Part shown: positions 1 to 31,940 of the stretch, piece by piece
Layout: every line of letters starts with the position of its first letter
Numbering within the stretch: position 1 is the first letter of the stretch
From: Parabacteroides distasonis
Lineage (GTDB): Bacteria > Bacteroidota > Bacteroidia > Bacteroidales > Tannerellaceae
DNA: 34,172 bases
Direction: 5' to 3'
Assembly (NCBI RefSeq): GCF_004793765.1
Contig: NZ_SRYM01000046.1
Span: 1 to 34,172 of the forward strand
The notes under the pieces: generated by a model
What the model saw: the letters and a program-made list of their open reading frames with translations, nothing else
Told to the model about the DNA's origin: nothing
The model's database searches: none
Translations under genes and position numbers: made by a program

Positions 1-55
1 CAAAATCCGGTGATGTAACCGTTTCTTATTTGCTCGATACGGTGGAAGCGTATTC
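1..55. repeat. Terminal direct repeat (circular overlap), left copy
   Basis: These 55 bases are identical to 34118-34172. An exact repeat at both ends, with an open reading frame (traG) continuing through it, is what a closed circle written linearly with a fixed-length overlap looks like. Removing one copy gives a 34117 bp circle. It is almost certainly an assembly overlap and not a biological repeat. Confidence 0.95.
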
Positions 56-2384
56 TTTGGATGTGGACGGGATCGAACAGCGGCATAATGATTTTTTTAG
101 GGCTTTCCAACATATCCGGAACGGATTTATCCATAAGCAGGATATTTTTCTTAGAAGAAAATTCGATCCGGAATATATGATAAAAGGGGATAGCTATATA
201 CAACAGGCCGAGAAACGGCACTTTGCAGGACGGGAATATTTACATCATTTTTGTGTTCTTTCCTTCACCCTTTCCGGTTTATTGAGTTTAGAGAAAGCGT
301 ACCAGGTTAACCCGCTTTCCTATAAGGAAGAACTAACGAAGTCAGACCGGGACAAGTTGGGCGATTTCCTGGAAAGCGTGGAAAATGCGATTTCCATTAT
401 TCGCAATATAAAGAATACAAGTATCCGGCCATTGACAACAGCGGATATAAAACAGCACATTTACAGGTATGTAAACGGCTTTCATAATGACGAGGGACTA
501 AGGGACATACAGTTTTCGGATAAGTTGAAGATCGGCCAGAAAACAGGCCTGTTCTTTGCCGTATCAGACGAGAGGTATTTACCCGACAAACTGAAAACCC
601 ATGTATCCGATACAACATTACAGGACGCAAACAGCAGTTTGTATATGGCAATGTTGGAGCGTTTAGGGGTACATTTGATGTGTTCCCACGTCATTAACCA
701 GATTTGGCAGTTTAAAGGAAATTCATTCAAAGAAGATTTGGCCGAACGTGTACGGCAATTCGGCCGTTACCGGGAGTTTGACAAGGGGATAAAAAAGAAA
801 TATGAAGATTTGGCCGACTATGAGCAAGAGATCATAAACGAGGAAAACACCCTTTGCAAAACTCACTTTAATATAGCCCTTTTAGAGGACGAAGAAGCCG
901 TTTTAAACAAATGTATCGAACAGGTAAAGAACATCTTTACAAACGCCGGATTTAAGTATTATATCCCTTCCTACGAAGGATTATATAATATCTTTATCGG
1001 TTCTGTTATCGGCCGTGAGAACTGCCTGGATCCGAGTTATTTGTTTTTAACCGACCTACATAGTTCCCTTTGTCTGAATATCAATTATACATCATATAAA
1101 AATGATCCGGAAGGTATTCTGTTTAATGAACGGATCTATCAAACGCCAATCCGGAAAGATCTTTGGGACGCACATAAACGCCGTATCCCGGCTCGTAATC
1201 TGATTATCGTAGCTTCGACAGGTGGGGGAAAGTCCGTTACTTCACTAAATATCATACAGCAATATATAGAACAGAGTTATAAGATCATTGTCGTAGAATT
1301 TGGTAAGAGCTTTTATCAGTTATCCCAACTTTACAAAGATAAATCTTTGCATGTTGATTATGACGGATCCGCCCCCCTGGGGATCAATCCGTTTTTTACG
1401 GACGGGAAGAAACCGGATAATGAAAAGGTTAAAACTCTGGTAGGGCTGATCCTTAAATTTTGGCGGGAAAAAACGATCATGGAAGATACAAAGCAGGTTG
1501 TTTCATTAACAAAGATCGTGAATGAATATTACGAAGATGTAAAGGAAGGCCATTGTTTCCCAAGTTTTTATAATTACGTGAAGGAGTACGGCCGGGAACT
1601 TTACACCCGGTTAAATATCCTTCCGGAATATTTCGACCTGGATAGCTTTTTACATATCTGTTCGGAATTTATGGAAGGCGGTTTTTACGAGAATGTTTGT
1701 AAACATTCTCCCCTTGAGAACGAAATGAAGAATCGGGATTTTATTGTTTTTGAACTAACCAAGATAAAGAAAGATCCTTTTCTTATCTCTGTTATTATGA
1801 CGATCCTATACGATACAATCGAAAATAAAATACTTTCGGATAGGAGCGTTCGGGGTATGCTGATCTTTGACGAGTACGCAGAAAGCCAGGCGATAAAGGA
1901 CACATTCAGCGGTGCAGATATTCACAGTACGGTAGCCTATTGTTACCAAAAACTAAGAAAAGAGAACGGCGGCATAGGTACGATAATACAAAGCCCGGCG
2001 CAGCTTCCGGATAACGAATTTACAAAGGGTATTATCGCAAATACACAGGTTCTTTGTGTTCTTCCGGCAACAGAGGTAGTTTACGATCAAGTAATAGAGG
2101 CCTTCCACATAAAAAACAACTCACAAATAAACCTGATGAAGTCCATACGGAACGATTTCGCCGGAACCCGGCCGCATAGTGAGGTATTTTTCCGGTTTAT
2201 GGATACTTACGCCACTGTTTTACGTCTTGAACTCTCAAAGGAGAAATTACTTGCTTTCCAAACGGACGGGGAGAAGTGGAACAAGTTACAAAACCTGTAT
2301 AAAGAAACCGGATCCATAGAGAACGCAATCGAAGAATTTAAAACCCTAAAAAGCAAAGATTATGAAAACGAAAGTTCTATGTAG
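1..2384 (+). CDS. traG: TraG-type VirB4 conjugation ATPase (main part; 5' end at 34057)
   Basis: Cytoplasmic/inner-membrane ATPase that powers assembly of the conjugative type IV secretion channel. Joined across the circular junction the gene starts at ATG 34057 and encodes 814 residues, a normal length for TraG of Bacteroides conjugative elements. In the joined protein a Walker A motif (ASTGGGKS) lies near residue 425 and a Walker B motif (LIFDEY) near residue 640. The N-terminal half matches the VirB4 layout, without P-loop motifs. Inside this linear window the first in-frame start is only a TTG at 30, which is an artefact of the cut point. The 3' end overlaps traI by 23 nt. The order traE-traF-traG-traI-traJ-traK-traM-traN follows CTnDOT-type systems. 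Identification is firm; the symbol follows CTnDOT usage. Confidence 0.95.
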   Translation, partial: KSGDVTVSYLLDTVEAYSLDVDGIEQRHNDFFRAFQHIRNGFIHKQDIFLRRKFDPEYMIKGDSYIQQAEKRHFAGREYLHHFCVLSFTLSGLLSLEKAYQVNPLSYKEELTKSDRDKLGDFLESVENAISIIRNIKNTSIRPLTTADIKQHIYRYVNGFHNDEGLRDIQFSDKLKIGQKTGLFFAVSDERYLPDKLKTHVSDTTLQDANSSLYMAMLERLGVHLMCSHVINQIWQFKGNSFKEDLAERVRQFGRYREFDKGIKKKYEDLADYEQEIINEENTLCKTHFNIALLEDEEAVLNKCIEQVKNIFTNAGFKYYIPSYEGLYNIFIGSVIGRENCLDPSYLFLTDLHSSLCLNINYTSYKNDPEGILFNERIYQTPIRKDLWDAHKRRIPARNLIIVASTGGGKSVTSLNIIQQYIEQSYKIIVVEFGKSFYQLSQLYKDKSLHVDYDGSAPLGINPFFTDGKKPDNEKVKTLVGLILKFWREKTIMEDTKQVVSLTKIVNEYYEDVKEGHCFPSFYNYVKEYGRELYTRLNILPEYFDLDSFLHICSEFMEGGFYENVCKHSPLENEMKNRDFIVFELTKIKKDPFLISVIMTILYDTIENKILSDRSVRGMLIFDEYAESQAIKDTFSGADIHSTVAYCYQKLRKENGGIGTIIQSPAQLPDNEFTKGIIANTQVLCVLPATEVVYDQVIEAFHIKNNSQINLMKSIRNDFAGTRPHSEVFFRFMDTYATVLRLELSKEKLLAFQTDGEKWNKLQNLYKETGSIENAIEEFKTLKSKDYENESSM

Positions 2385-2922
2385 CATTATGATAATGTTT
2401 TTCGCCGTCACTAATGTAGCGGCGCAGTGGGTAGTTTCTGATCCGGCGTTAACTTCATTAACGCAGATCACAGCGGCCAAAGAGTTTGAACAGGCATTAA
2501 AGGATTTCGCAGTTTTGCAAAAATCACGGGATTTCTTGAATGAGAGCATAGATTTCTATAAGAAGGTGAACGGAGTAATCAAGAACTCAAAGACCGTTTT
2601 AAACGTACTTTCCAGGCAGGGGAAAATGTACGAGTTATCAGCGCAAGAGTGTTCCAGGACGGATATTTATACACCGGACGCCTATAAGGAATATACGCAA
2701 GTCATTAATGATATTATGGAGGAAAATTTGCTTTCCTTCGATCTGATTAAAACGATTATATCTAGCAGCGTACAAATGACGGACGGGGAAAGATTGCGGG
2801 TGATCTTGGATCTGGACGAAAAGACCAAAGAGGGGATGAATAAACTTATAGATGAACGATCCCGCTTTAATACGGTAAATGATGCAATAAAAAGAATCTC
2901 TGCACTTAAATCTAAAAAGTAG
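2362..2922 (+). CDS. traI: TraI-like (DUF4141) periplasmic conjugation protein
   Basis: A 186-residue protein with an N-terminal signal peptide (about residues 1-21, ending in NVAAQ) followed by QWVVSDP, the start typical of the mature TraI/DUF4141 family in Bacteroides transfer regions. The rest is largely helical and charged, resembling VirB5/TrbJ-like minor pilus or channel proteins, so an exported role in the transfer apparatus is likely. The start overlaps the end of traG by 23 nt, and the stop is 6 nt before traJ, so it is translated within the tra operon. The family call rests on position and the QWVV-DP start; the VirB5 comparison is inference. Confidence 0.8.
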   Translation: MKTKVLCSIMIMFFAVTNVAAQWVVSDPALTSLTQITAAKEFEQALKDFAVLQKSRDFLNESIDFYKKVNGVIKNSKTVLNVLSRQGKMYELSAQECSRTDIYTPDAYKEYTQVINDIMEENLLSFDLIKTIISSSVQMTDGERLRVILDLDEKTKEGMNKLIDERSRFNTVNDAIKRISALKSKK

Positions 2923-2928
2923 AAAGCT

Positions 2929-3708
2929 ATGGATATGGAAGTTATTGACAACGTTATAACCGCTTACGAGGCTGTAAAGCTCAACGATGTAAGCAAGTCT
3001 ATTATAGCCTTATGTACCTTTATCGCTTTAATCATTGTGATAAATAGATTTATTACAGCCTATAAAGAGGCTTTTTCAGAAGGTGACAGCCCGGCCGATC
3101 TGAAACACTTTTTCCGGTTGTTTTCTGTATATGTTTACTTTTTTGTGCTGATCGCTTCGGCTCCCTTTGCTTTCTCTATCATTGAGAAAGGTTTAGGGGA
3201 AATTCAAAACGAACTGATACAACATTATCAAAAAGATGTGGATCTTAGTATAGATGAAGCGATTGTAACCTTTACAAAGGATTATATCGAAGATGTACAA
3301 CGGCGGCATAACTGGGTAGGAAAGCAGATACAAGAGGTCATAATGTTGCCTCTTACTATTTCCGCTTATACGATCCTGTTGTATGCAACGAAGTATATAT
3401 TTTTCTTTTTTGCAGCAGGCAGATATTTATATCTTATCTTACTTGAGATCGTTACGCCGATTGCGATTATCCTTTACCTGGACGAAAAGACGAGAAGTTA
3501 TACACATACCTTTTTGAAGAACCTGTTTATCTGTTATATGTTGATCCCGGCGTTTTTGATTGCAAACGCTTTCGGATCTATCATTTCAGATAATATCATG
3601 CACATGGTAGGCGAAAATAAATACAGCCTTTTAGGTTTGTTGTTCGCCTTTATCTTTAAATTATTCCTTTTTGCGAAGTCCGTAAAATATTGTAATCAAC
3701 TGTTTTAA
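2929..3708 (+). CDS. traJ: TraJ-like polytopic inner-membrane protein (VirB6-like)
   Basis: A 259-residue membrane protein with several hydrophobic segments (about residues 22-42, 60-85, 140-185, 200-220 and 230-250), separated by a long polar stretch at residues 85-135 rich in acidic residues and lysine. Position between traI and traK and the multi-span layout match TraJ of CTnDOT-type systems, the VirB6-like channel component of the inner membrane. It is shorter than CTnDOT TraJ (over 300 residues as I recall), with fewer spans at the C-terminus, but the reading frame is intact. It is translated in the tra operon, 6 nt after traI and 13 nt before traK. Confidence 0.8.
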   Translation: MDMEVIDNVITAYEAVKLNDVSKSIIALCTFIALIIVINRFITAYKEAFSEGDSPADLKHFFRLFSVYVYFFVLIASAPFAFSIIEKGLGEIQNELIQHYQKDVDLSIDEAIVTFTKDYIEDVQRRHNWVGKQIQEVIMLPLTISAYTILLYATKYIFFFFAAGRYLYLILLEIVTPIAIILYLDEKTRSYTHTFLKNLFICYMLIPAFLIANAFGSIISDNIMHMVGENKYSLLGLLFAFIFKLFLFAKSVKYCNQLF

Positions 3709-3721
3709 AGTATATTAATCT

Positions 3722-4360
3722 ATGGATAAAGATAGTGTATTGAAAGATTTTGACACGTTGGCCGAATCGAAAAAGAAAAACGCTTTGAATCTGAAACTTT
3801 GTTTAGGTTTCGCCCTGGTAGTGGTTATCTTGGTTTTAGCCTGGGGAATCACGGTAGCCCTTACCGCACTTGATAGAGTTGTAGTAGTGGAACGAAGCGG
3901 GGAGTATCTAAAAACCTTTTCCCAGGATCGAGAGGCCATGTTTACGACATTCGTAAAGAATACGTGCGCGCAAGCTACCATGTACGCAAATTCGTTTGAT
4001 CGTTTGAACCTAAAGAAGAACCAGGCACAGGCCGCCTTCTATATCAATAAGAACGATCTAAACGCCATTACGTCAAAATACTATAATGATAAGGCCTATT
4101 TTGATGCAATGCAGAACGGAGCCGTTTATAAATGCGACTTTGACAGCTTGCAGATCCTTTCCGGAAATAATGAACCCTATAAAGTCCGTTTTAGTTCAAC
4201 GCTTACCGTTTACGGGGTAAGCGGCCAGAAAATAAAGTTTCTGATAAAGACCGAGGGCGATTTAGTCCGGACAACTCCACAATTTCCGGAGAATGTGACA
4301 GGCCTGTTTTTTAATAGATACATTCAGCAAATCATACGTTTAAGAGAACCCAAAAAATAA
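3722..4360 (+). CDS. traK: TraK-like VirB8 conjugation protein
   Basis: A 212-residue bitopic inner-membrane protein: a short charged cytoplasmic N-terminus, one transmembrane helix (about residues 25-48, LGFALVVVILVLAWG), then a periplasmic domain of about 160 residues. This is the VirB8 layout, and the gene holds the traK position directly before traM. The periplasmic domain contains the strand-rich segment expected near the C-terminus (around YKVRFSSTLTVYG and GDLVRTTPQ). It is predicted to act as an assembly scaffold linking inner-membrane and outer-membrane parts of the channel. It is followed 7 nt later by traM. Confidence 0.85.
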   Translation: MDKDSVLKDFDTLAESKKKNALNLKLCLGFALVVVILVLAWGITVALTALDRVVVVERSGEYLKTFSQDREAMFTTFVKNTCAQATMYANSFDRLNLKKNQAQAAFYINKNDLNAITSKYYNDKAYFDAMQNGAVYKCDFDSLQILSGNNEPYKVRFSSTLTVYGVSGQKIKFLIKTEGDLVRTTPQFPENVTGLFFNRYIQQIIRLREPKK

Positions 4361-4367
4361 CAAGCCT

Positions 4368-5246
4368 ATGGATAGCGTGACTAAAACAAAAATCATTCTG
4401 TTTTCTTCCCTGGGGATCTTATTGCTTATCATTGTAGGCGTTTGTATTGCCTTCATGGGGGGGAAGTCCGGAACGGTGGAAGATAACGTAAATACGTCCC
4501 TTAGAGCGCAGGAGCAAAGCGATTTTGCTTTAGATGATATGCTTAAAGCGAATGACGGCCGCCCGGAATATGAAAAGTTCGGGGAGTACGAGCAGCCCGC
4601 AGAAACAAAGATCCAGGATCCGGAAATACTTGCTTTACAGGAGCAGTTAAGGGAGAACCAGGGGGGACAGCCGGACACAGTGCAGCCAAAGAAACGTATA
4701 GCACCGAAGAAGAAAGCAGCCAAGAAACAGCCGGAACCGCAGCAGCCCCCAAAGCCGGAGAGCCGTTTCTTTTCTTCCGGAAAGGAAGAAAACACCGGAA
4801 ACACGGTAGAGGCCATTGTTTCCGGAGATCAGAAGATCACCGACGGCAGCGTTATAAAGTTAGTGACCTTGCACGAGATACCGTTAGAAAACGGCGTGAT
4901 CTTGCAAAAAGGATCCGCTTTATTCGGTGTGGTGAAATTAGAGCAAGACCGTATTAGCGTAACGATCCAATCCGTCCGGATCGGTAACAGTATCTACGAT
5001 CTGAAAAAGCAAGTATATGACCGGGACGGGCTACCAGGTATTTACGTACCCCTTAACATCAAAGCCGAAGCCACCAAAGAGGCAGCGGGGGAAGTTGTTA
5101 ACGATATGAATGTAACGCCTTATAGTTCCGATGTATTAAGCACAAGCGTTAACGCCGTTAGTAGTGCAGCTAAAAGCGTATTCCGGAAGAAAAATAACCA
5201 GGTAATCGTAACCGTAAAGTCAAACTATAAACTGTATTTAAAATGA
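4368..5246 (+). CDS. traM: TraM-like VirB10 conjugation protein
   Basis: A 292-residue VirB10-like protein. It has one N-terminal transmembrane helix (about residues 10-30), a long low-complexity stretch rich in Pro, Gln, Glu and Lys (about residues 65-135, including KKRIAPKKKAAKKQPEPQQP) that can span the periplasm, and a compact C-terminal domain from about residue 140. It would link the inner and outer membranes in the transfer channel. CTnDOT TraM is longer as I recall; the shortening appears to be mainly in the linker. The TGA stop overlaps the ATG of traN (ATGA at 5243), so the two are translationally coupled. Confidence 0.87.
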   Translation: MDSVTKTKIILFSSLGILLLIIVGVCIAFMGGKSGTVEDNVNTSLRAQEQSDFALDDMLKANDGRPEYEKFGEYEQPAETKIQDPEILALQEQLRENQGGQPDTVQPKKRIAPKKKAAKKQPEPQQPPKPESRFFSSGKEENTGNTVEAIVSGDQKITDGSVIKLVTLHEIPLENGVILQKGSALFGVVKLEQDRISVTIQSVRIGNSIYDLKKQVYDRDGLPGIYVPLNIKAEATKEAAGEVVNDMNVTPYSSDVLSTSVNAVSSAAKSVFRKKNNQVIVTVKSNYKLYLK

Positions 5247-6340
5247 AAACATTATACATTATATTGCTAATTCTTACAGCTCTACCGTGCCGGTCACAGC
5301 TCCGGCCGGTAGAAAGCAAAGAAATTTGTGTAAACTACTCAAAAACAATACATTTGATTTTTCCAACTCCGATAAAATACAGTAAATCCGTCACGGATTT
5401 TGTCGTAGTGGATAATCCGGAAAATGTTCCCAAAATTTTACGAATAAAGGCCAACCAAAAGAGTTTTAGCCGGAAAACGACCGTTTCCGTTGCGACGGAA
5501 GGCGGGTATTTCTATTCGTTTAACGTCAGTTATTCCGATACCCTGGAACATACAAACTATTTTCTTCCGGAAATGAGCAGTATTACACCGGATACGATAT
5601 TTATTAATGAAGTATCGCAAACCCATTTGATCGCCCCGGAAAAGATCATCTACATAGATTTCGGGGATACCTGTATAAAGGTAGACAAGGCAGAGAAAAC
5701 AGAAAATATAATCCGGATGATCGCCACAAGCGGAACCGTGCAAGGATTTCCCAAACAAACTAATTTGTCCTTAGCAACCACAGACGGAAAGTTTTATACC
5801 TATGACGTGGATTTTCGCCAGGATCCGGAAGCCTTCGTTTATGAGATAGGGGAACAGCAACCAGATAAGAAAGCAAATGTTATCCTTTCGGATAATATCA
5901 TTCCCGCAGTTGAACGGGATAGCGTGATGAAAGCCGTATATACGGCCAGGCGGCAGATCTTTAACAAAGGAATCATAAAGAATAAAATTACGTTCAGTAT
6001 TAATAACCTCAATATCTACAATAATCTTTTGCTCTTTACTTTTGAGATAGAGAATAAAAGCAGGATCCCTTACGATATTGATTATATCCGTTATTTCATC
6101 GTTGACAAGAAAACGGCCAAACTCACCGCTTCGCAGGAAGTAGATCAAACGGTTCTATTCTCTGAATATTACACGCCCAGGGTAGAAGGCCGGAAGAATT
6201 TAAAATATGTCGTAGCCTTTTCAAAGTTCACCATTCCGGATGAGAAGGTTTTCCGGATCGAGATAAACGAGAAAAATGGGGGAAGACATATTTTATTTGA
6301 TCTTGAGAACTCCGATTTATCAAATGTGGAAGGTATTTAA
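5243..6340 (+). CDS. traN: TraN-like (DUF4138, VirB9-type) conjugation protein
   Basis: A 365-residue exported protein with a short signal peptide (about residues 1-18, ending before QLRPVESKEICVNYSKT). The mature part is beta-rich, with two related segments (residues about 25-100 and 105-190) of the type xxIxFPxxIxYxDxG, then a C-terminal beta-domain from about residue 215. This is the DUF4138/TraN family, the VirB9-like outer-membrane-associated partner of TraM. It starts within the traM stop codon and its last 17 nt overlap the start of the next gene. Family assignment is supported by gene order and by the strand pattern. Confidence 0.85.
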   Translation: MKTLYIILLILTALPCRSQLRPVESKEICVNYSKTIHLIFPTPIKYSKSVTDFVVVDNPENVPKILRIKANQKSFSRKTTVSVATEGGYFYSFNVSYSDTLEHTNYFLPEMSSITPDTIFINEVSQTHLIAPEKIIYIDFGDTCIKVDKAEKTENIIRMIATSGTVQGFPKQTNLSLATTDGKFYTYDVDFRQDPEAFVYEIGEQQPDKKANVILSDNIIPAVERDSVMKAVYTARRQIFNKGIIKNKITFSINNLNIYNNLLLFTFEIENKSRIPYDIDYIRYFIVDKKTAKLTASQEVDQTVLFSEYYTPRVEGRKNLKYVVAFSKFTIPDEKVFRIEINEKNGGRHILFDLENSDLSNVEGI

Positions 6341-6902
6341 CATATTGTTTTTATGTGTCGTTTTGCCTTCGTTCGGCCAAGAGGTAAAAGCGGATAAGTA
6401 TAAACTTATTATCCAGGTTTTACAGACGGCAGCGGATTTTCAAAATATAGCCCCTGTAATGGAAATTATCAGCCGGGACAATGAAATTTTTTCTTATGTC
6501 CCGTCCGAGTGTCCGTTACTTGAGAACTTCCGGATCTCCGATAATTTCGGTTATCGGATCCACCCGATAAAGGGAACACGGCAGTTTCATAGTGGGGTAG
6601 ATCTTGCCGCAGCTTACGCCGCCACAGTACACGCCACCGCCCAGGGAATTGTTACTTTTTCCGGCAATATGGCAGGATACGGAAAAACGGTAGTGATCCG
6701 ACACAAATACGGTTTTGTAACCCAATACTCACACCTTACTTATATCTATCGGAAGGTAGGGCAGGAAGTGAGAAAGGGGGAAGTTATCGGCTTTGTAGGA
6801 TCGACGGGGCAGAGTACCGGGAATCACCTACATTATGAGATTATAAAGAATAACAGGAAAGTAAACCCGCTAAACTTTTTTAATTATGAATTTAGGAAAT
6901 GA
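6324..6902 (+). CDS. M23 (LytM) murein endopeptidase of the transfer operon
   Basis: Zinc endopeptidase predicted to cut peptidoglycan cross-links so the transfer channel can cross the wall. It has a signal peptide (MWKVFNILFLCVVLPSFGQ), which fixes the start at ATG 6324; an upstream in-frame ATG at 6276 would bury the signal and lengthen the overlap with traN. The active-site signature is complete: H89 and D93 (HSGVD) plus H168 and H170 (NHLHYE). At 192 residues it is a minimal secreted LytM enzyme. CTnDOT-type regions commonly carry a lysozyme-like gene for this job, so this is an alternative wall hydrolase. The last 17 nt overlap the downstream XRE gene. Confidence 0.9.
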   Translation: MWKVFNILFLCVVLPSFGQEVKADKYKLIIQVLQTAADFQNIAPVMEIISRDNEIFSYVPSECPLLENFRISDNFGYRIHPIKGTRQFHSGVDLAAAYAATVHATAQGIVTFSGNMAGYGKTVVIRHKYGFVTQYSHLTYIYRKVGQEVRKGEVIGFVGSTGQSTGNHLHYEIIKNNRKVNPLNFFNYEFRK

Positions 6903-7092
6903 ATTGAAGGTAGAGAGAACCCGGTTAGACATAAAGGCTAAGGACGTGGCGAACGATATAGGCGTAACACCGCAGCAGATCAGTAATATAGAACGTACCA
7001 GGAAGGTAACGAACCTTTTGAAATATATATCATTCCTACGCTCTAAAGGCGTGGATCTGAATAATTTATTTGATAGGATAAACAATAAATAA
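6886..7092 (+). CDS. Small XRE-family helix-turn-helix regulator inside tra operon
   Basis: A 68-residue single-domain DNA-binding protein. Residues 4-60 carry the XRE/Cro helix-turn-helix pattern (IKAKDVANDIGVTPQQISNI), the recognition helix being the segment after GVTP. There is no sensor domain. Its start lies 17 nt inside the M23 gene, and the next gene begins 8 nt after its stop, so it is co-transcribed with the late tra genes and could feed back on tra expression. The target is unknown; the operator-like repeats near 33321-33340 and the 22-bp palindrome at 22452 are candidates only. Confidence 0.85.
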   Translation: MNLGNELKVERTRLDIKAKDVANDIGVTPQQISNIERTRKVTNLLKYISFLRSKGVDLNNLFDRINNK

Positions 7093-7100
7093 GAAAGAGT

Positions 7101-7511
7101 ATGAGAAGCATTTTAATGACATTGTTTGCAGTGGTTTTGTTATCTTCATGTGATAACGACCTAAAAATTATCAACCGGGATTTTTCGGTAAGTCTGAAAG
7201 CCATAGACGGCGGTACGCCTACCGTTGGCCGATCAATCAAATGTACTTTTTCCGTTAACGGCCTGGATCCGGCCAATTCGGACGAACTGTTTACTACCTT
7301 TTCCGTTAAAGACGGCAGCGGTAAGATCTTAGTAGAGAATGACGAGTACACACCAGGGGAAACGATTATTTACGACTACCAGGAAGCCGGGAAAATGATC
7401 TTTGATTATGTTCCGGCCACTTCCGGGACGCAATCGCTTATTTTATCCGTCAGTTCCGAAATTATAACCCGTTCGGATACGGTCGTTATTAACGTGGTGA
7501 ACAGTAACTAA
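7101..7511 (+). CDS. traQ: TraQ-like (DUF3872) lipoprotein
   Basis: A 136-residue predicted lipoprotein: N-terminal hydrophobic segment ending in LLSSC (lipid-anchored Cys at about residue 17), then a single beta-sandwich-like domain with Gly/Asp turns (NDEYTPGETIIYDY near the middle). Length, late position in the tra operon and strand pattern resemble TraQ/DUF3872 of CTnDOT-type systems. It probably sits at the periplasmic face of the outer membrane. The assignment is moderate because the similarity was judged by eye; it could also be an unrelated surface lipoprotein. Confidence 0.6.
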   Translation: MRSILMTLFAVVLLSSCDNDLKIINRDFSVSLKAIDGGTPTVGRSIKCTFSVNGLDPANSDELFTTFSVKDGSGKILVENDEYTPGETIIYDYQEAGKMIFDYVPATSGTQSLILSVSSEIITRSDTVVINVVNSN

Positions 7512-7524
7512 AAAGCGTAACATT

Positions 7525-8031
7525 ATGAAAAAGATTATCCTTTTAATAGCTGTTTTATTCGTTTCAATGGTCACGAAAGCACAGTATATCGGCAGCCAAT
7601 ATTTAAACGGTAGCCTCGATTATATCGTAGATCAAAACCAAGTGCAGGGAAGCGTAGGTTTTGGAAAAGTGTACAAGAGCTTTAAAGTAGGTGCGGTTCT
7701 CAACTACCGGAACCTATCTAAAGATGCAGTTACGGCCAACACAGCAACCGCCGGAGCCGAATTTTCCTATTACCTTCTGAAAGGATCCCGCTTTTCTCTC
7801 TCCGGTGTGGCCGTTGGATCAATCGGCTTTCAGAAGGCCAAGACGAAAAGCGAATTAATCCGCTTAGAGAGGTCAAAAGCGTTTGTTTACGGGTATGAGG
7901 TGGGAGTACGGCCGGAATTTCTGTTATCCCCTAAATGTGCCTTATTTATGCAATATAAATTTGAAATGCTGTTTAACTCCATAATCCGGAATAATAACCA
8001 TATAGGAGCCGGATTTATCGTTTACTTATAA
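7525..8031 (+). CDS. traO: TraO-like outer-membrane beta-barrel
   Basis: A 168-residue protein with a signal peptide (residues 1-19, ending VTKAQ) and an alternating amphipathic pattern with aromatic girdle residues, ending in a hydrophobic strand (GAGFIVYL) as expected for an eight-stranded outer-membrane barrel. In CTnDOT-type operons TraO occupies this late position and has this size. A role in anchoring or gating the channel at the outer membrane is inferred. Only 13 nt separate it from the upstream lipoprotein gene. Confidence 0.65.
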   Translation: MKKIILLIAVLFVSMVTKAQYIGSQYLNGSLDYIVDQNQVQGSVGFGKVYKSFKVGAVLNYRNLSKDAVTANTATAGAEFSYYLLKGSRFSLSGVAVGSIGFQKAKTKSELIRLERSKAFVYGYEVGVRPEFLLSPKCALFMQYKFEMLFNSIIRNNNHIGAGFIVYL

Positions 8032-8054
8032 TTCACCTTTTAAAATTAAACAAG

Positions 8055-8510
8055 ATGAAACGCATTAGTTTTTTAGTTCTGTTACTGGCGGCCATGACCG
8101 CAGTGTTTTATAGTTGTAGCAATGACGAGGACGAACCAGGCAGCGGAAAGGCGGCCATGTACCAGGTAGTAATTAAACAAAGCGGCGATTATCAGAATTT
8201 CATTAAATCCGTTGTGATCGCAGCAAACGGAACTACATTAAAGGACGATATCGCAAACAAAAGTTTGTCGAAAACTGTTTTCAGTGACGAAGATTTAACC
8301 GGATCGACGTTTTCCGTAAGCACAGAAGGAAAAGCGGTACAGTTCGCCGTTTCCGGAGGCGTAGCAGACCGGGACGAGGAAAGTATTACTAATCCCATGA
8401 CCTGGGACGTAACGGTTTACCGTGACGGAAAAGAAATAGATCACCAGGTACTTACTTTTGAGGACGGCCACCAGCCAAGCAGTAAGGATCTGAATTTATA
8501 TTACGATTAA
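8055..8510 (+). CDS. Lipoprotein at the end of the transfer operon
   Basis: A 151-residue lipoprotein with a clear signal and lipobox (YSC, Cys at about residue 21) followed by a Ser/Asn/Asp/Glu-rich spacer (SNDEDEPGSG). An acidic stretch directly after the Cys is the kind of signal that sends Bacteroides lipoproteins to the cell surface. The remainder is a beta-rich domain I do not recognise. As the last gene of the operon it could be a surface adhesin or an exclusion protein, but nothing in the sequence proves either. A hairpin follows at 8522-8554. Confidence 0.7.
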   Translation: MKRISFLVLLLAAMTAVFYSCSNDEDEPGSGKAAMYQVVIKQSGDYQNFIKSVVIAANGTTLKDDIANKSLSKTVFSDEDLTGSTFSVSTEGKAVQFAVSGGVADRDEESITNPMTWDVTVYRDGKEIDHQVLTFEDGHQPSSKDLNLYYD

Positions 8511-8521
8511 AGCCTATGGGG

Positions 8522-8554
8522 GAAGCGTGGCGACCTTCACAGGCCGCCCGCTTC
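8522..8554 (+). terminator. Bulged hairpin ending the transfer operon
   Basis: GAAGCG pairs with CGCTTC and GGC with GCC, interrupted by a one-base bulge and a small internal loop, closed by CCT/AGG around a four-base loop. It starts 11 nt after the last tra-operon stop codon. There is no clean T-run, so it may be a 3'-end stabiliser or structured leader instead of an intrinsic terminator. Confidence 0.45.
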
Positions 8555-8923
8555 AATATGATTTAATTTCTGTTTTGCCTCACGACAATATTATTGTGTG
8601 TTTAAGTGATAATAGTTAATCTCTTCCTAATATTTCAATATTTTGTAATATCCTTTTGGATTAAAATAGTTCATTTTTTAGAGTTTTTTGCAAAAATGTA
8701 GCTCAAAAATACTGCAATTATGCTAAACTATAATTATATAACGAAACTTTTTAAGGCTTTCGTAAAGAATATTTTATTTTCTGCTTATTCAAACTCTCCG
8801 ATAATACAACACTTTTGAAAAATGTTCTAAGTTTTTCTGGAATTTACTACCCAAAAGTTTAGTTGTTATCTAGGTTCTTAAGGTATTACCTTTTTGTGTA
8901 ATGTCCGTTATTGGAGTTGAATA

Positions 8924-8931
8924 TAATTTTG
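8924..8931 (+). promoter_or_regulatory. Bacteroides -7 box (TAATTTTG)
   Basis: Matches TAnnTTTG, 28 nt upstream of the lipoprotein start at 8960. No TTTG at the usual 19-21 nt upstream, so the -33 half is weak and activation may be needed. Confidence 0.5.
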
Positions 8932-8959
8932 CCACCGAAATAACAAAATAATTAAAATT

Positions 8960-9892
8960 ATGATTTACAAAAAATTATTGTGTAGTTTAGCTTTGGTAGC
9001 TATGTTTTGCTCTTGTTCTTCTGATGTTATGGATATGCCAAGTCAAGAAGCCAATATTGCCACTAAGGAAAGTTTGATTTATCTTGATGGTGTTCCTTTC
9101 TCTCAGGAGAATGATATGTTGTCATTTGCGACTATCGAAGAGTTCCAACAGGCAGTGAAAGGGATGGAGAATAACCGGATTGTCATGGAAAATTTGGGAA
9201 CTTATGTTCCCATGCAGGAAGAAGTGAATCGGTTACAATTGGAAGGGTTCACTTCTATTTATGATGCGTATGAGGAAGCTTTGAACGAGGCAGATAATTA
9301 TTATGATTCAGAAAGTCATTACGCTGAGTTCAAGGAAAAATATGCAAGTCTGTATTTTCCTGAACATGAGGATGATTATTCCGTATATTTGCCGGTTAGC
9401 GATAGAAACGTTGCTAAATTGTTAAATGTCAATGGGGATGTAATGATCGGTAATGAGGTCATTAATATGAAGGATATTTTCACTTACGAGAAATTGGTAG
9501 AGTTGGGAGAGACAATGACTGATGATGGTATTTCTACTTTAGATTATACTGGTGACTATTTGAATGGGACTCCAGAGCTTAAAAATGGAGGTGATCGCAA
9601 GTTGAGAATTAGAGTTTATACAAAACCGGGTTCTGATGGAGTTGGTGAAATTGTTGTTGTGGATGTTAGCTTCAGAAAGAAAGGTGCGTTCGGGGCTTGG
9701 TACAATTATAAATCTACTACGACTTTAGGTTCGGCTTCGGGAAAATCTTGGAAGAAAGACGGCTTCTCTTCTCATGATTATAAATTTGCACGAGAATATC
9801 GAGGGGGAAAACCTCTACAGTTTATAGACAGAATGTATATCGAGTATCAAGGGTTTAGAGGTGAGAAAGTATTCTTTAATGTAGACATTTAA
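8960..9892 (+). CDS. Surface lipoprotein of unknown function, paired with barrel
   Basis: A 310-residue lipoprotein with a lipobox ending FCSC (Cys at about residue 19). Residues 35-130 are helical and acidic and mention YLDGVPFSQENDMLSFATIEEF, a start I associate with uncharacterised Bacteroides lipoproteins of the DUF4848 type. Residues 200-310 are beta-rich with many Tyr, Phe, Lys and Gly. It is followed 4 nt after its stop by an outer-membrane barrel, so the two probably act as a pair at the outer membrane. The gene is more AT-rich than the tra operon and has its own promoter box at 8924, consistent with cargo. Function unknown. Confidence 0.7.
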   Translation: MIYKKLLCSLALVAMFCSCSSDVMDMPSQEANIATKESLIYLDGVPFSQENDMLSFATIEEFQQAVKGMENNRIVMENLGTYVPMQEEVNRLQLEGFTSIYDAYEEALNEADNYYDSESHYAEFKEKYASLYFPEHEDDYSVYLPVSDRNVAKLLNVNGDVMIGNEVINMKDIFTYEKLVELGETMTDDGISTLDYTGDYLNGTPELKNGGDRKLRIRVYTKPGSDGVGEIVVVDVSFRKKGAFGAWYNYKSTTTLGSASGKSWKKDGFSSHDYKFAREYRGGKPLQFIDRMYIEYQGFRGEKVFFNVDI

Positions 9893-9896
9893 AAAG

Positions 9897-10508
9897 ATGG
9901 GAAGATTTTTTAGGTTGTTTGTTGTTTTCTTTGTTGTTTCGGTACATTGCTTTTCCCAAAGCCAATCTGGTTTATTAGTGGGGGCAGGTATGGGATTTGA
10001 AAGTATAACGGCTAATACTAATAATCCAGAGTTTTTGGAAGGAAAGCAATTCAATAGCTCTTATAATTATAATCTGCAAATTGGTTACCGTTTCCGGTTT
10101 GAGAATCCGAGACATGACAGGATATTTTTTGACGTGGACCCGTTGATAAAACTACAGACTTTTAAAAATGTGAGTTTTTCTCCGGGAACCAGTGCGGATT
10201 ATACATCGGTCACGGCTGAAGCACGGGATATAAATTTTCAATTGGCGGTTTCGCCATCTGTTAATTACCTGTTTTTTAAAAGGGTTTATCTTGGTATGGG
10301 AGTGGAGCCTACTTGGAATATAGTTACGGAAGGGAAGCATTTTGATATTCCTGTTTTTGGTCGTATTGGTTACAGTCTTAAAGGCAAGATGGAACTGGCC
10401 GTAACTTATCGTCATGGTTTCCTGAACGTGATAGATGATAGCAAGTATAATAAAGGGCGGATATCGGATTTGAGCGTCGGAATTTTCATTCCTTTTTATA
10501 TTAAGTAG
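9897..10508 (+). CDS. Outer-membrane beta-barrel protein
   Basis: A 203-residue protein with a signal peptide (residues 1-20, ending HCFSQ) and an eight-strand type porin/OmpA-barrel pattern: Gly-rich first strand (GLLVGAGMGFE), repeated aromatic-ended strands and a last strand ending IPFYIK. It is translated directly after the lipoprotein gene (4 nt gap) and ends before a strong terminator at 10534. The pair could be a secreted factor or receptor with its membrane partner; the sequence does not decide. No plug or periplasmic binding domain is visible. Confidence 0.75.
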   Translation: MGRFFRLFVVFFVVSVHCFSQSQSGLLVGAGMGFESITANTNNPEFLEGKQFNSSYNYNLQIGYRFRFENPRHDRIFFDVDPLIKLQTFKNVSFSPGTSADYTSVTAEARDINFQLAVSPSVNYLFFKRVYLGMGVEPTWNIVTEGKHFDIPVFGRIGYSLKGKMELAVTYRHGFLNVIDDSKYNKGRISDLSVGIFIPFYIK

Positions 10509-10533
10509 TTAATAAGAAAATTTGAATGTATAA

Positions 10534-10571
10534 GTATGGTAAGGTTATCAGTGACTTTACCATACTTTTTT
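10534..10571 (+). terminator. Intrinsic terminator
   Basis: A perfect nine-base stem (GTATGGTAA at 10534-10542, TTACCATAC at 10557-10565) followed by six T residues. It closes the lipoprotein/barrel operon and isolates it from the ThiF gene. Confidence 0.85.
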
Positions 10572-10626
10572 GTTATAAAGGATAGGTCTTATACCTTTTT
10601 GTAAAGGTTTTCTTTTTATTTTTATG

Positions 10627-10634
10627 TAGTTTTG
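10627..10634 (+). promoter_or_regulatory. Bacteroides -7 box (TAGTTTTG) for the ThiF gene
   Basis: Matches TAnnTTTG, 22 nt before the ATG at 10656. The same box sequence TAGTTTTG recurs at 12316 before the acyltransferase gene, so the two plus-strand genes of the module may share control. Confidence 0.6.
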
Positions 10635-10655
10635 TATTTATTAATAAAAAGTTAG

Positions 10656-11414
10656 ATGAAAGAAAGATATTCAAGAAATCGTATATATATACGAGAAGAT
10701 GAGCAAGAGCTTATAGGAAAAAAACGGTTGTTTCTGGGTGGTTCCGGAATCGGTAGCGTTATAGCGGAATGTGCTATTCGCTTTGGTTTTGAGAACATAA
10801 CAATCGTTGATGGTGACAAGGTGGAGTTAAGTAATCTGAACCGGCAGAATTATACGTTTGGTGATATTGGCAGGTATAAGGCCGAATGTTTGGCCGAACG
10901 GCTCCTGATGATTAATCCGGATGCTAATGTTATGTTTCATACTTGTTTTATAGACAGGGGTAACGTTAAAGAACTATTAGAAGGACATGATATTGCTATT
11001 AACGCATTGGATTTTACGTCTGATATACCTTTTTATTTTGATGAAGTGTGTAAAGAGAAGGGTATACCGGTATTGCATCCCTTTAATTTTGGTTTTGGGG
11101 CTTTCCTTACGATTGTAAAACCTGATAGCCTTCAATTGGCAGAGGTTCTCGGTGATTATGAGAATGCAGATTTGAGAATGGTGGAACAGGTTTGTCGGTA
11201 TGGTATATTCTGGAATGAGCCTAAAGAATGGTTAGAGAGGGTCATAGAAGAATATAAAAAAGAAAAAGGCATACTTCCCCCCCCTCAATTGGCAATTGGA
11301 TCTTGGATTGTTGCGGGTGATTGCGTTACGGCCATGTATAATATGTTGACAGGTAAAGATGTGAAAGTGTTCCCTAAATTTTATCTGTCAACATTATATA
11401 ACAATAGGAACTAG
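10656..11414 (+). CDS. ThiF/E1-like adenylyltransferase
   Basis: A 252-residue Rossmann-fold enzyme of the ThiF/MoeB/HesA/E1 family, which uses ATP to adenylate a carboxyl group (usually the C-terminus of a ubiquitin-like protein or short peptide). Visible core motifs: nucleotide loop GGSGIGS (residues 28-34), IVDGD with D52 and D54, NLNRQ (N60, R63, Q64), K75, and NALD with D119. I see neither the paired CxxC zinc site of MoeB/ThiF nor an obvious catalytic Cys loop, so it may stop at the acyl-adenylate, as MccB-type enzymes do before a partner completes the transfer. It lies convergent to the LuxR-type gene (6 nt between stops) and next to a LuxI-like acyltransferase. No ubiquitin-like substrate gene ending in GG is visible nearby, so the substrate may be a small molecule, a host protein or a very short peptide. 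Confidence 0.88.
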   Translation: MKERYSRNRIYIREDEQELIGKKRLFLGGSGIGSVIAECAIRFGFENITIVDGDKVELSNLNRQNYTFGDIGRYKAECLAERLLMINPDANVMFHTCFIDRGNVKELLEGHDIAINALDFTSDIPFYFDEVCKEKGIPVLHPFNFGFGAFLTIVKPDSLQLAEVLGDYENADLRMVEQVCRYGIFWNEPKEWLERVIEEYKKEKGILPPPQLAIGSWIVAGDCVTAMYNMLTGKDVKVFPKFYLSTLYNNRN

Positions 11415-11419
11415 TTGTA

Positions 11420-12175
11420 TTACAATAGCTTGTAATTTGTTGCAAATGATAAAGCTTCCGTGATATTTTTGACTTCCATACGTTCAAAAATTCTCCTTTT
11501 GTAATATTTTACAGTATCTATCGCAATGCATAGTTTATCGGCAATCTCATTCATGGTATAACCTTGGGCGGATAAGGTTAGAATATCTTTTTCTTTGTTG
11601 CTCAAGGTTATACCTTCGCATTCTTGCCATTTGTGTTGTTCCAGTAAATACGTCCAATAATTTTTCTGTCCCGCTTTACGCATTTCTATGTGTCCAGCGC
11701 TATTGTGTGAGGAAAGGGATACCATACATGCGGCAAGCCATATTTTTCCTTCTTTATCTAACGTGATAGGTGTCAGCTTATGGTTTATCAGTATTTCTTT
11801 CTTTCCTTTTTGAGTATGGAAATCGTATGAGATTGTATATAGAAGCCTTTCATCTACTGGTATCTCATGAAAAAATTTGAACCCTGATTTGTTTATTTCT
11901 GTAAGCATGCTTTGTTCCTTTTCGGGTACATGATTAATATAGAAGAGATATCCCAATTTCTTAATTTCCTCAGATGAATAGCCACGTAAAAAGAGGGGAT
12001 TCTCAGAAACAAATAAGAAATTTTTCTTGAAGTAATCAATTATGTATAAACTTTGATACGTCATTCTGGATATGGCCTCGAATGTTTTGATTACGGTATC
12101 GGCTTTCTTGTATTCTTCTTCAGAAATAGAAAATACGGAGTTTGAGGATATAAAAAAGTCGTTTACTGATGTCAT
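11420..12175 (-). CDS. LuxR-type regulator with N-terminal PAS-like sensor
   Basis: A 251-residue transcription factor. Residues about 25-150 form a PAS-like sensor (around SLYIIDYFKKNFLFVS and YTISYDFHTQKG), and the C-terminus is a LuxR/NarL helix-turn-helix (LSNKEKDILTLSAQGYTMNE, then IADKLCIAIDTVKYYKRRIF). I chose ATG 12175 because an in-frame start 36 nt further upstream at 12211 would have to be translated from before the likely -7 promoter box at 12201-12208. The gene is divergent from the acyltransferase at 12337, the classical arrangement of a signal-responsive regulator and its synthase, and two similar dyad sites lie between them. The sensor is PAS-like and not the AHL-binding fold of proteobacterial LuxR, so the ligand need not be an AHL. 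Confidence 0.88.
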   Translation of the reverse strand: MTSVNDFFISSNSVFSISEEEYKKADTVIKTFEAISRMTYQSLYIIDYFKKNFLFVSENPLFLRGYSSEEIKKLGYLFYINHVPEKEQSMLTEINKSGFKFFHEIPVDERLLYTISYDFHTQKGKKEILINHKLTPITLDKEGKIWLAACMVSLSSHNSAGHIEMRKAGQKNYWTYLLEQHKWQECEGITLSNKEKDILTLSAQGYTMNEIADKLCIAIDTVKYYKRRIFERMEVKNITEALSFATNYKLL

Positions 12176-12200
12176 TTTATAATAAATTACATTGAGACCG

Positions 12201-12208
12201 CAAAAATA
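12201..12208 (-). promoter_or_regulatory. -7 box (TATTTTTG) of the luxR-type gene
   Basis: On the minus strand it matches TAnnTTTG, with a TTTG 16 nt upstream. It lies 25 nt before the ATG at 12175, giving a short leader. Confidence 0.55.
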
Positions 12209-12238
12209 CATTTTCCTTTGATACCAAAGGAGCTTTTG

Positions 12239-12292
12239 CTACACAAAAGTGTAGCTTTTGGAGAATCGTTTTTACAACCGCACAATAGTGTA
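12239..12292. promoter_or_regulatory. Repeated operator in the luxR/acyltransferase divergent region
   Basis: Two copies of CACAAWAGTGTA, at 12242-12253 and 12281-12292, match at 11 of 12 positions with 39 bp between starts. The first lies in a perfect dyad CTACAC-AAAA-GTGTAG (12239-12254); the second overlaps a dyad ATAGT-GT-ACTAT (12285-12296). The second copy sits about 24 bp upstream of the -7 box at 12316, where an activator overlapping the -33 region would bind. A LuxR-type dimer encoded next door is the obvious candidate. Confidence 0.6.
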
Positions 12293-12315
12293 CTATCTGA
12301 AACGGTGAAAGAAAA

Positions 12316-12323
12316 TAGTTTTG
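12316..12323 (+). promoter_or_regulatory. -7 box (TAGTTTTG) of the acyltransferase gene
   Basis: Matches TAnnTTTG, 13 nt before ATG 12337. No TTTG at -33; instead the second operator copy occupies that position, which suggests dependence on an activator. Confidence 0.6.
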
Positions 12324-12336
12324 TGCTATCAAAAGA

Positions 12337-12987
12337 ATGAGCATGAAAAAATTAATGTCACAAAATAGCAGATATCGAATTTATAAGGCAGACTTAGGTC
12401 AACTTTATGATGTAGCCAAATTTGTGGTAAGTGAGAATTATAAACACCACAATGAGAAAATGTTGGATAATATGGTGGAAGATATACAAAGTGTATATAA
12501 TGAAGAACTTAGCTATTTCCCTAAATCTTATATTTATGTGGTGGAAGATTTTAGGGGAGAAATGATCGGATGTATCCGTGTGATGAAGTGGGATAAGAAG
12601 GATGAATTGCCTATACAGAGGATTTTTAATATAAATCCACTACAATGTATTAAAAAAGGAGGAGATATGACTTTTTGGCACATAGGACGTTTCGCCATTA
12701 ATTCATTGGCTAATGCCTCTGGAATATCATTATTTAAACAACTGATGATTTTTGCCATAGTGCCGATATGTAAATCCCTGAACGGTTATATGATTGCGGA
12801 ATGCGATAGTAAATTACTCAAAATCATGAATCGGTTAGGAATTGACACTAGGAGGTTAGGGGAGGGGATTTCATATTTGGGTTCCGAGACTATACCTGTA
12901 TATGCAGACAGAAAAGGGTTACTTCGTTTTTATTCCAATTTTAAACATTTATATTATGATACAAATCTTTCCGTCAGTTCAAATTAA
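12337..12987 (+). CDS. LuxI/FeeM-like GNAT-fold N-acyltransferase
   Basis: A 216-residue protein with the layout of autoinducer synthases and N-acyl amino acid synthases (GNAT fold). Visible similarities: a strand and turn YIYVVED followed by GEMIGCIRVM (compare V-G-C-x-R-L in LuxI), then FWHIGRFAI around residues 113-120 (compare W-E-x-S-R-F-A-V), with the Arg kept (R118) and the usual Glu replaced by His (H115). The C-terminal half has an ordered helix-strand pattern with LMNRLGIDTRRLGEGISYLG, resembling the end of LuxI-type domains. It most likely transfers an acyl chain from acyl-ACP or acyl-CoA to an amine, making an N-acyl product. It is divergent from the LuxR-type regulator and ends before a bidirectional terminator. 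It could also be a non-signalling GNAT; its context argues for a signal or lipid-amide product. Confidence 0.75.
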   Translation: MSMKKLMSQNSRYRIYKADLGQLYDVAKFVVSENYKHHNEKMLDNMVEDIQSVYNEELSYFPKSYIYVVEDFRGEMIGCIRVMKWDKKDELPIQRIFNINPLQCIKKGGDMTFWHIGRFAINSLANASGISLFKQLMIFAIVPICKSLNGYMIAECDSKLLKIMNRLGIDTRRLGEGISYLGSETIPVYADRKGLLRFYSNFKHLYYDTNLSVSSN

Positions 12988-13168
12988 AGACTTTGTATGA
13001 GAAAGAGAATAATCGACTGCTCTAATGTTTGGTAGATAGGAAGTAATAGTCTTTAAGATAGTTAAAGATGTGGGGATGTGTCAAAATGTACATATTCCCC
13101 TTATTGTTAAAAAATGTGTTGGTATTTTTACTGTATCTTCGAATGTTATGGATGTTCTGAAGTGTACA

Positions 13169-30270: not shown

Positions 30271-31425
30271 ATGAGAAAATTATTGTTTAAATGTTTAGTA
30301 TTAGCCATTGTATTTATGATATCAGGTTGCTCGGATATGATGGATGATGTTAGTTTTGTTGAAAATAAAACAGAATTTAATAGTTTAAAACAAGCTAAAT
30401 CAGAAGAGATCGCATTAAAATTAGAAGATTCTTTTCGGTCTACTATTTTGCGATCTGGAGGTAAGATCTATCCCGAATATTATGGAGGTAGTTATATTGA
30501 GAATGGAAATTTAGTTGCTTTAGTAACAGAAGATACAACAGAATGTCGCAGAAAACTATTGTCAAGAACAGAAAGTCCTGATTTCCTTGTTAAGCCATGC
30601 AAATTTTCTTATAATGAGCTACTAGACATACATAAGATAGTATTGGATTTCTTTATGAATGAAGAAAATAATAGATTAATTTCTGAAATAACAATGAATT
30701 CTTTAGGAATATCGGCAAAAGGTAATAGTATATTTGTTAGTCTCCAAGAACTTACTCCTGAAAAAATAGCTTTATTTAAAAATCGAGTTGTAGATTCTCC
30801 TATTATAACCTTTGAGCAAGCACACGGACAAATTGTGGCACAAGCAACATCAATTGTTTCAGGAGGGCATGTTTCATTAACTTCTGGTGGACTTGGTGGG
30901 TCTACAGGTTATAGAGCTAAAATGGGTACAACAACAGGAATTGTAGCTTCAGGACATGTTTTATCAACATTAGATGCAAAAGTATATCGTAACACAACAT
31001 TAATAGGTACGGTGAAAAAAGTTCAATTGAGTGGTAGTGTGGATGCAGCGTTTGTTGCTCTTGATTCTGGTTTTGAAGGAACTAATAGTATCGGTACTAC
31101 TTCTGTTTCAACATCAATAGAGGTATTAGGAGAGGGAGGAAATGTTTCTCTTCGTGGATATTATAATCAAACTGATGGAGTTGTTTATAATACAGGGGTT
31201 GCTTGTAATGTGAAAATTTTATCAACAGGAAAGATTGTAAGAATTAGTAACTGTACTAGATGTAAGTATGACTCTAAGGGTGGTGATAGTGGAGGATTAA
31301 TTTATTCTACAAATAGAAAAAATACAGTAGGTATACATGAAGGAGCTGATGAAGAGCAAAATGGATATTCATATTATGTTTTAGCGCATTCAATCAATGA
31401 TGCGTTAGGTTTAAGTCGATATTAA
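30271..31425 (+). CDS. Chymotrypsin-fold lipoprotein protease with pro-region
   Basis: A 384-residue exported serine protease of the S1 (streptogrisin/alpha-lytic-like) type. Lipoprotein signal with Cys20 (MISGCSD); pro-region at about residues 66-190; catalytic domain from about 191 to 384. The triad is in chymotrypsin order: H229 (VASGHV), D258 (SVDAAFVAL), S340 (GGDSGG). Two Cys-containing segments (VACN and NCTRC) could form disulfides. In alpha-lytic-type proteases the pro-region is needed for folding and inhibits the mature enzyme. Two downstream genes encode proteins related to this pro-region. The gene is very AT-rich compared with the tra and mob genes, a sign of recent acquisition. 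Substrate unknown. Confidence 0.88.
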   Translation: MRKLLFKCLVLAIVFMISGCSDMMDDVSFVENKTEFNSLKQAKSEEIALKLEDSFRSTILRSGGKIYPEYYGGSYIENGNLVALVTEDTTECRRKLLSRTESPDFLVKPCKFSYNELLDIHKIVLDFFMNEENNRLISEITMNSLGISAKGNSIFVSLQELTPEKIALFKNRVVDSPIITFEQAHGQIVAQATSIVSGGHVSLTSGGLGGSTGYRAKMGTTTGIVASGHVLSTLDAKVYRNTTLIGTVKKVQLSGSVDAAFVALDSGFEGTNSIGTTSVSTSIEVLGEGGNVSLRGYYNQTDGVVYNTGVACNVKILSTGKIVRISNCTRCKYDSKGGDSGGLIYSTNRKNTVGIHEGADEEQNGYSYYVLAHSINDALGLSRY

Positions 31426-31438
31426 TTTAATATAGAGA

Positions 31439-31460
31439 GAGGGGGCTTTAAAGTCCCCTC
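31439..31460 (+). terminator. Hairpin between the protease and pro-domain genes
   Basis: GAGGGG / CCCCTC arms extended by CTTTAAAG across a G-T wobble. No clear T-run; it may attenuate transcription and set the ratio of protease to downstream proteins. Confidence 0.5.
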
Positions 31461-31472
31461 ATATTATTATAT

Positions 31473-31940
31473 ATGAAGAAAGTATTCATGATAGCTTTTG
31501 TTTTATTTATTGTAACAAGTTGTATTGACAATAAAAATAGATACTTGTGTAACAAAGAATATCCGGATTATTATGGTGGATCTTATTATGATGAAGATGG
31601 GCGACTTGCTATTTTGATAGTTACTGGTTTCAATGTTAAAAAGGAATGTGTAGACTCTTTATTAGGTGTTGAAGACTATTATGTTATAGACTGTAGATAT
31701 TCTTATAACGATATATTATGTGTGCATAAATATCTTAATGACTTCTTCATGGATCATCAAAATGATTTTATTATAAATAAAATAACAATTAATTCATTAG
31801 GTATAAATCTGAGGGAAAATACTATTTTTGTTTCTTTAAAAGATAGTACAAAGGAAAATATAACCTTGTTTAGAAAGCGAGTTTCTAATAGTCCTATCAT
31901 CAGTTTTGAAAAATGGAGAGGAAATATCAATGCTCACTAA
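31473..31940 (+). CDS. Stand-alone pro-domain lipoprotein (candidate protease inhibitor)
   Basis: A 155-residue lipoprotein (Cys17, VTSC) that aligns along its whole mature length with residues 66-190 of the protease encoded upstream: YPDYYGGSYYDEDG versus YPEYYGGSYIENG, CRYSYND versus CKFSYNE, INSLGI versus MNSLGI, NTIFVSL versus NSIFVSL, and NSPIISFE versus DSPIITFE. It stops where the catalytic domain would begin. The family's pro-regions are tight inhibitors and foldases, so a membrane-anchored copy could protect the producer or help folding in trans. The next gene overlaps its last 28 nt. Confidence 0.85.
   Translation: MKKVFMIAFVLFIVTSCIDNKNRYLCNKEYPDYYGGSYYDEDGRLAILIVTGFNVKKECVDSLLGVEDYYVIDCRYSYNDILCVHKYLNDFFMDHQNDFIINKITINSLGINLRENTIFVSLKDSTKENITLFRKRVSNSPIISFEKWRGNINAH

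Follow-up and report, generated by a model that had tools for sequence, protein, structure and literature searches.

The best match among described systems for the circuit examined here is the N-acyl-cyclolysine (ACL) system of Bacteroidota, as described in the review PMC13419125, which cites Linares-Otoya et al. 2025 (Nature 646:423, doi 10.1038/s41586-025-09418-9) for it. Its ThiF-family enzyme AclA has been solved with substrate (PDB 9EGB). The window, by which we mean the whole stretch of DNA analysed, is a contig of 34,172 bases from Parabacteroides distasonis (NZ_SRYM01000046.1), one of 177 in its assembly, and it contains a gene for a ThiF-family enzyme next to divergent genes for a LuxR-type regulator and an acyltransferase. 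The original prediction, made from the sequence alone, had proposed a possible signalling system; the signalling part of that proposal stood, but the system is not an unknown one and matches the ACL system. Very probably the window carries a complete ACL-type circuit on a p5482-like conjugative plasmid, a reading carried by the gene content, the conservation of the trio, the AclA and FeeM/LuxI folds, and promoters with two boxes at matching spacing. The three open reading frames (ORFs) on which the prediction was built are all in place and intact:

10656-11414, plus strand: ThiF-family enzyme, AclA homologue, proposed to perform ATP-dependent cyclisation of an N-acyl amino acid
11420-12211, minus strand: regulator of the LuxR type, which we propose to be the AclR homologue and the receptor of the signal; probable start 12175
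12337-12987, plus strand: FeeM/LuxI-like N-acyltransferase, assigned from Pfam, family alignment and fold, which we propose makes the signal by acylating lysine

The three proteins and the conserved trio

The ThiF protein matches PF00899 (ThiF, E=1.4e-33) and aligns end to end, at 53% identity, with substrate-bound AclA; it is a close relative of AclA and an AclA homologue by sequence and fold. This is consistent with the earlier suggestion that such an enzyme might act on the product of the synthase. Two other assignments were tried and rejected. The E1 components of PADLOC models for an anti-phage E1-E2 system hit the protein (best 7.8e-18), but the E2, JAB and CD-NTase partners are all missing beside it and AclA is much closer; its match to the plasmid-partition (PRTRC) ThiF family is weak (1.1e-7, 31.4 bits against a cut-off of 144.75).

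The sole Pfam match of the acyltransferase is FeeM (PF21926; E=7.5e-4), and its 19.7 bits fall below the curated cut-off of 27, though the fold resemblance is strong. Across the family, the profile comparison that had been proposed found FeeM in 33 of the 39 aligned members (best 3.1e-8), Autoind_synth (the LuxI family) in four at E<=0.1, and Acetyltransf_5 in four. A search of solved structures by sequence gave nothing convincing for the acyltransferase. In the structure comparison, which had also been proposed, FeeM (PDB 2g0b) was the top match by Z (16.1, 172 residues aligned, 10% identity) and LasI (1ro5) the top match in Foldseek. LuxI enzymes have a Glu at the position equivalent to H115 of this protein. 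The prediction had pointed to a His there, within WHIGRFA, and because H115 is unchanged in 39/39 aligned sequences the replacement is a trait of the family.

The regulator has a LuxR-type DNA-binding domain (PF00196, GerE; E=2.4e-15), and its start at 12175 is likelier than the one at 12211 because the T. discolor homologue starts at that residue. Outside the DNA-binding domain its best solved relative is 3clo. The sequence lends the idea of a PAS-like sensor weak support: PAS_3 was found at E<=0.1 in 4 of 37 relatives, and the window regulator itself gave no Pfam match to PAS.

The substrates, product, ligand binding, binding of the regulator to its boxes and activation that we infer are as follows. 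The FeeM-like enzyme would join a fatty-acyl group to an amino acid, which is lysine in the published system, and the ThiF enzyme would adenylate the carboxylate of this N-acyl amino acid, leading to closure to a lactam. The lactam would build up with cell density and be bound by the LuxR-type regulator (AclR), and the ligand-bound regulator would occupy two palindromic boxes about 41 and 80 bp upstream of the presumed transcription start, activating both the acyltransferase gene (autoinduction) and an operon at 8960-10508 for a lipoprotein and an outer-membrane barrel.

The same architecture might serve another chemistry, in which the acyltransferase would use an amine other than lysine and the ThiF product would be some other cyclic or activated compound, making the system ACL-like with a signal of its own. 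The acyltransferase is 46% identical to the one that accompanies an AclA relative in the T. discolor locus L071, and 36-52% identical to its 38 aligned relatives; reportedly, several ACL structures exist. The end-to-end alignment of the ThiF protein with AclA argues against this, as do 50 ThiF columns invariant over 33 sequences and 21 acyltransferase columns invariant over 39, and we regard a different chemotype as unlikely.

Among related genomes, 8 of 147 had an acyltransferase relative, with the window's own genome counted; for genomes of the family the figure was 7 of 123, and for those of the order 3 of 295. Genome contigs scanned with the single acyltransferase protein gave none, and a later scan with a four-sequence alignment found 115 relatives, all in records titled Bacteroidota (Bacteroides, Prevotella, Tenacibaculum, Chryseobacterium, Flavobacterium, Aquimarina, Saprospiraceae and others). 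In viral contigs, neither acyltransferase nor regulator relatives were found. The best 80 of the 115, chosen by their acyltransferase and including several near-duplicates, were taken as loci. The canonical order, with the ThiF gene facing the regulator gene and the acyltransferase gene diverging from the latter, was found in 64/80 loci, with a ThiF-regulator gap of -5 to 170 bp, so that the expectation of a three-gene set conserved elsewhere was borne out. Together with the closeness of the ThiF protein to AclA, this argues for the predicted reading as a LuxR/synthase pair in Bacteroidota with an N-acyl product other than an acyl-homoserine lactone (AHL). Seven of the 16 remaining loci keep the divergent regulator-acyltransferase pair, and the DNA fetched for them revealed no ThiF gene (L029, L059, L065, L085, L088, L089 and L090, some of them cut by contig ends), and the other nine are rearranged, interrupted or cut.

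These data also bear on a classical AHL pair of the LuxI/LuxR type with an unrelated ThiF neighbour. The divergent synthase and LuxR-type regulator, and LasI as best Foldseek match, would fit such a pair; however, the window acyltransferase has no match to Autoind_synth (PF00765) at E<=1, an autoinducer-binding domain is missing from the six Pfam matches of the regulator at E<=1, and the ThiF gene belongs to the conserved trio. This explanation is extremely improbable.

An ordinary GNAT gene and an ordinary LuxR gene might also lie together by chance, or the locus might be a decaying remnant without function. One gene is broken or fragmentary in five Bacteroidales loci (the acyltransferase in L012, L014, L015 and L016, ThiF in L010), but the three window genes are full-length and open and keep the family-invariant columns (the alignments include the window), and the promoter architecture of the window is intact. 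Chance grouping is ruled out by synteny, and we consider chance or decay, taken together, highly improbable.

The acyltransferase ORFs of L012, L014, L015 and L016 have 140, 138, 246 and 73 amino acids and weak scores, next to full-length regulator and ThiF genes; these loci are either receivers without a signal synthase or cases of decay. At L015:9359-12787 the ORF enters unrelated sequence past the acyltransferase start, and is followed by a SagB-family dehydrogenase (TIGR03605, E 1.1e-41) and genes resembling those of ABC transporters; this is probably an azoline peptide cluster. At L010:11238-11832 the ThiF relative is split into two ORFs and adjoins coupling-protein and group II intron genes; this is another copy near mobile-element genes, apparently not intact.

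Two-box promoters and predicted targets

A palindrome, CTACACAAAAGTGTAG, was spotted by eye between the regulator and acyltransferase genes, and the consensus was first read here. The promoter has the following elements:

12239-12254, plus strand: operator box 1, CTACACAAAAGTGTAG, 12/12 consensus positions
12278-12293, plus strand: operator box 2, 9/12, centred 39 bp after box 1 and 34 bp ahead of the -7 element
12316-12323, plus strand: -7-type element, TAGTTTTG

Scoring with CTACACNNNNGTGTAG gave a best site of at least 10/12 in 59 of 78 regulator-acyltransferase regions (window included), compared with 0.6 in block shuffles. TAnnTTTG, which we take to be the Bacteroidota -7-type promoter consensus, was searched from -20 to +150 bp in the 60 regions with a site of at least 10/12; 45 elements were found, 25 of them at 33-35 bp from the centre of the site and the other 20 at 71-73 bp. 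The two clusters of distances imply two boxes 38-39 bp apart, the nearer centred 34 bp before TAnnTTTG, and the rule can be written as CTACACnnnnGTGTAG twice, 38-39 bp apart, with TAnnTTTG 34 bp further. If transcription starts about 7 bp past the element, the nearer box would presumably lie at about -41, the position of a class II activator.

With both boxes required to sum to at least 17/24, the combined pattern occurred 110 times in 90 records (1,305,276 bp in all, surrounding these loci), and five shuffles yielded none. The reversed consensus gave 0, and ten permuted palindromes gave 0 for eight and then 1 and 28. Shifted spacings gave 0, 21, 26 and 15 occurrences; non-zero values are expected here because one perfect box may pair with a chance half match. 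The pattern stands upstream of the acyltransferase in 44/80 loci, elsewhere in 54/80 and in both places in 32/80, and 53 of the 61 other patterns start no more than 150 nt past the acyltransferase stop. By eye, the genes that follow them include GG-leader small peptides, outer-membrane receptor-like proteins and lipoproteins. L053 has a protein that resembles a radical SAM/SPASM maturase, and L018 has a maturase of this kind together with a peptidase-ABC exporter. L018 (MT836930.1, 1-8252) is filed as an unverified bacteriophage; its regulator, acyltransferase, 53-aa GG-leader peptide (at 1323, with a two-box promoter upstream), radical SAM/SPASM maturase, outer-membrane receptor-like protein and peptidase-ABC exporter make it look like a Bacteroidota peptide cluster.

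The window contains exactly two two-box promoters, at 12316 (12 + 9 of 12) and at 8924 (10 + 8 of 12), both with spacings of 39 and 34 bp, and lowering the cut-off to 15 adds no site. The second precedes a putative operon:

8847-8862, plus strand: operator box 1, CTACCCAAAAGTTTAG, 10/12 consensus positions
8886-8901, plus strand: operator box 2, 8/12, centred 39 bp after box 1 and 34 bp ahead of the -7 element
8924-8931, plus strand: -7-type element, TAATTTTG
8960-9892, plus strand: predicted target gene 1, secreted lipoprotein-like, lipoprotein signal by eye, weak similarity to DUF4848 (PF16140; E 1.5e-6, 28.4 bits, cut-off 22.8)
9897-10508, plus strand: predicted target gene 2, resembling an outer-membrane beta-barrel protein (OMP_b-brl at E 2e-4, short of the cut-off)
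10532-10567, plus strand: terminator-like hairpin from a consensus scan, parting the target operon from the ThiF gene

A relative of the barrel protein adjoins the acyltransferase of L010 (E 4.5e-18). With one site ahead of the acyltransferase gene and one ahead of 8960-10508, the circuit is expected to induce both itself and the lipoprotein/barrel operon. The original prediction had suggested that transfer or cargo expression could be tied to cell density; control of cargo is supported by the promoter of this putative operon, while the link to transfer is unsupported, no two-box promoter having been found upstream of the transfer (tra) genes of the plasmid. One weak candidate box upstream of the ThiF gene (8/12, 34 bp before TAGTTTTG at 10627) was not counted.

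Scans with a single box weigh against this picture. In the window, with three mismatches, such boxes were not above chance, and in the genome, with one mismatch, there were six places versus five for the reversed pattern, the only exact match being the box of the plasmid itself. A regulon reaching from plasmid to chromosome was rejected for want of any excess in that genome scan, which covers single boxes only.

Plasmid setting

The same 55 bases stand at both contig ends (1-55 and 34118-34172), as they would if the plasmid is a closed circle of about 34,117 bp. The backbone is p5482-like and encodes TraG, a coupling protein and a Rep3 initiator; many plasmids of Bacteroides and Parabacteroides share 95-96% identity with its ParA region, the transfer region has about 71% identity across half of 1-8600, and over 13100-34172 the best record is 93.6% identical over 35% of the stretch. 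G+C is 35.0% across 8511-13100 versus 41.1% and 40.3% in the flanks. The equivalent stretch of p5482 has genes for winged-helix regulators, DUF3575, DUF5119 and fimbrillins where the window has the signalling genes, and the two-box pattern was not found in it (L019).

The acyltransferase had no match at E 0.01 among 72,556 plasmids, a set that may lack records close to the genome of the window, and for this reason we do not claim that plasmid carriage is unique. Regulator and ThiF relatives are present on four Riemerella plasmid records; in one of them (L110, NZ_CP081938.1) they adjoin, an ABC-transporter gene lies upstream, and a neighbouring acyltransferase gene is not annotated. Elsewhere in the window, at 30271-32917, three adjacent ORFs share by eye a PDYYGGSY-like block, the first with the GDSGG motif of trypsin-like proteases.

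Two things are new to us, the inferred target and the presence of such a circuit on a p5482-like conjugative plasmid; the kind of system is known. We propose, only tentatively and with some doubt, that a self-transmissible plasmid equips its new host with a full ACL quorum circuit and that, with the circuit's own synthase and a plasmid-borne surface operon as the two recognisable targets, the cargo answers to density. If so, the cargo possibly answers also to ACLs from chromosomal systems of neighbouring Bacteroidota, and conjugation would spread both signal production and signal response. With quorum sensing of the dominant phylum of the gut on a conjugative backbone, signalling could pass from one species to another. 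The operator rule is compact and predicts the genes under a given ACL regulator: in the sampled loci, genes for peptide precursors, maturases, outer-membrane receptors and lipoproteins, and in the window the lipoprotein/barrel operon.

Comparison with known systems

Adenylating enzymes of the ThiF/MoeB/MccB type are among the closest known systems. With FeeM, an N-acyl amino acid synthase, the window acyltransferase shares the top fold match by Z and the best Pfam family of its relatives, and it differs in its low identity in the structural alignment and its score below the Pfam cut-off; FeeM is not known to have ThiF and LuxR partners. From the LuxI/LuxR AHL systems (LasI) the locus differs in the His of its acyltransferase family, in the extra ThiF enzyme, and in having neither a PF00765 synthase nor a detected autoinducer-binding domain in its regulator.

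The ACL system is reportedly autoinducing and is said to control an adjacent operon whose products are secreted or displayed on the surface. The window shares with it the phylum, the AclA-homologous ThiF-family cyclase, an acyltransferase of the family that accompanies AclA relatives, and the dedicated LuxR-type regulator divergent from it. Judging by the two-box promoters before the acyltransferase and before 8960-10508, autoinduction and control of nearby genes for secreted or surface products through a common operator would be further, predicted likenesses. It differs in that its copy sits on a p5482-like conjugative plasmid and that its predicted target operon lies on the ThiF side, not past the acyltransferase.
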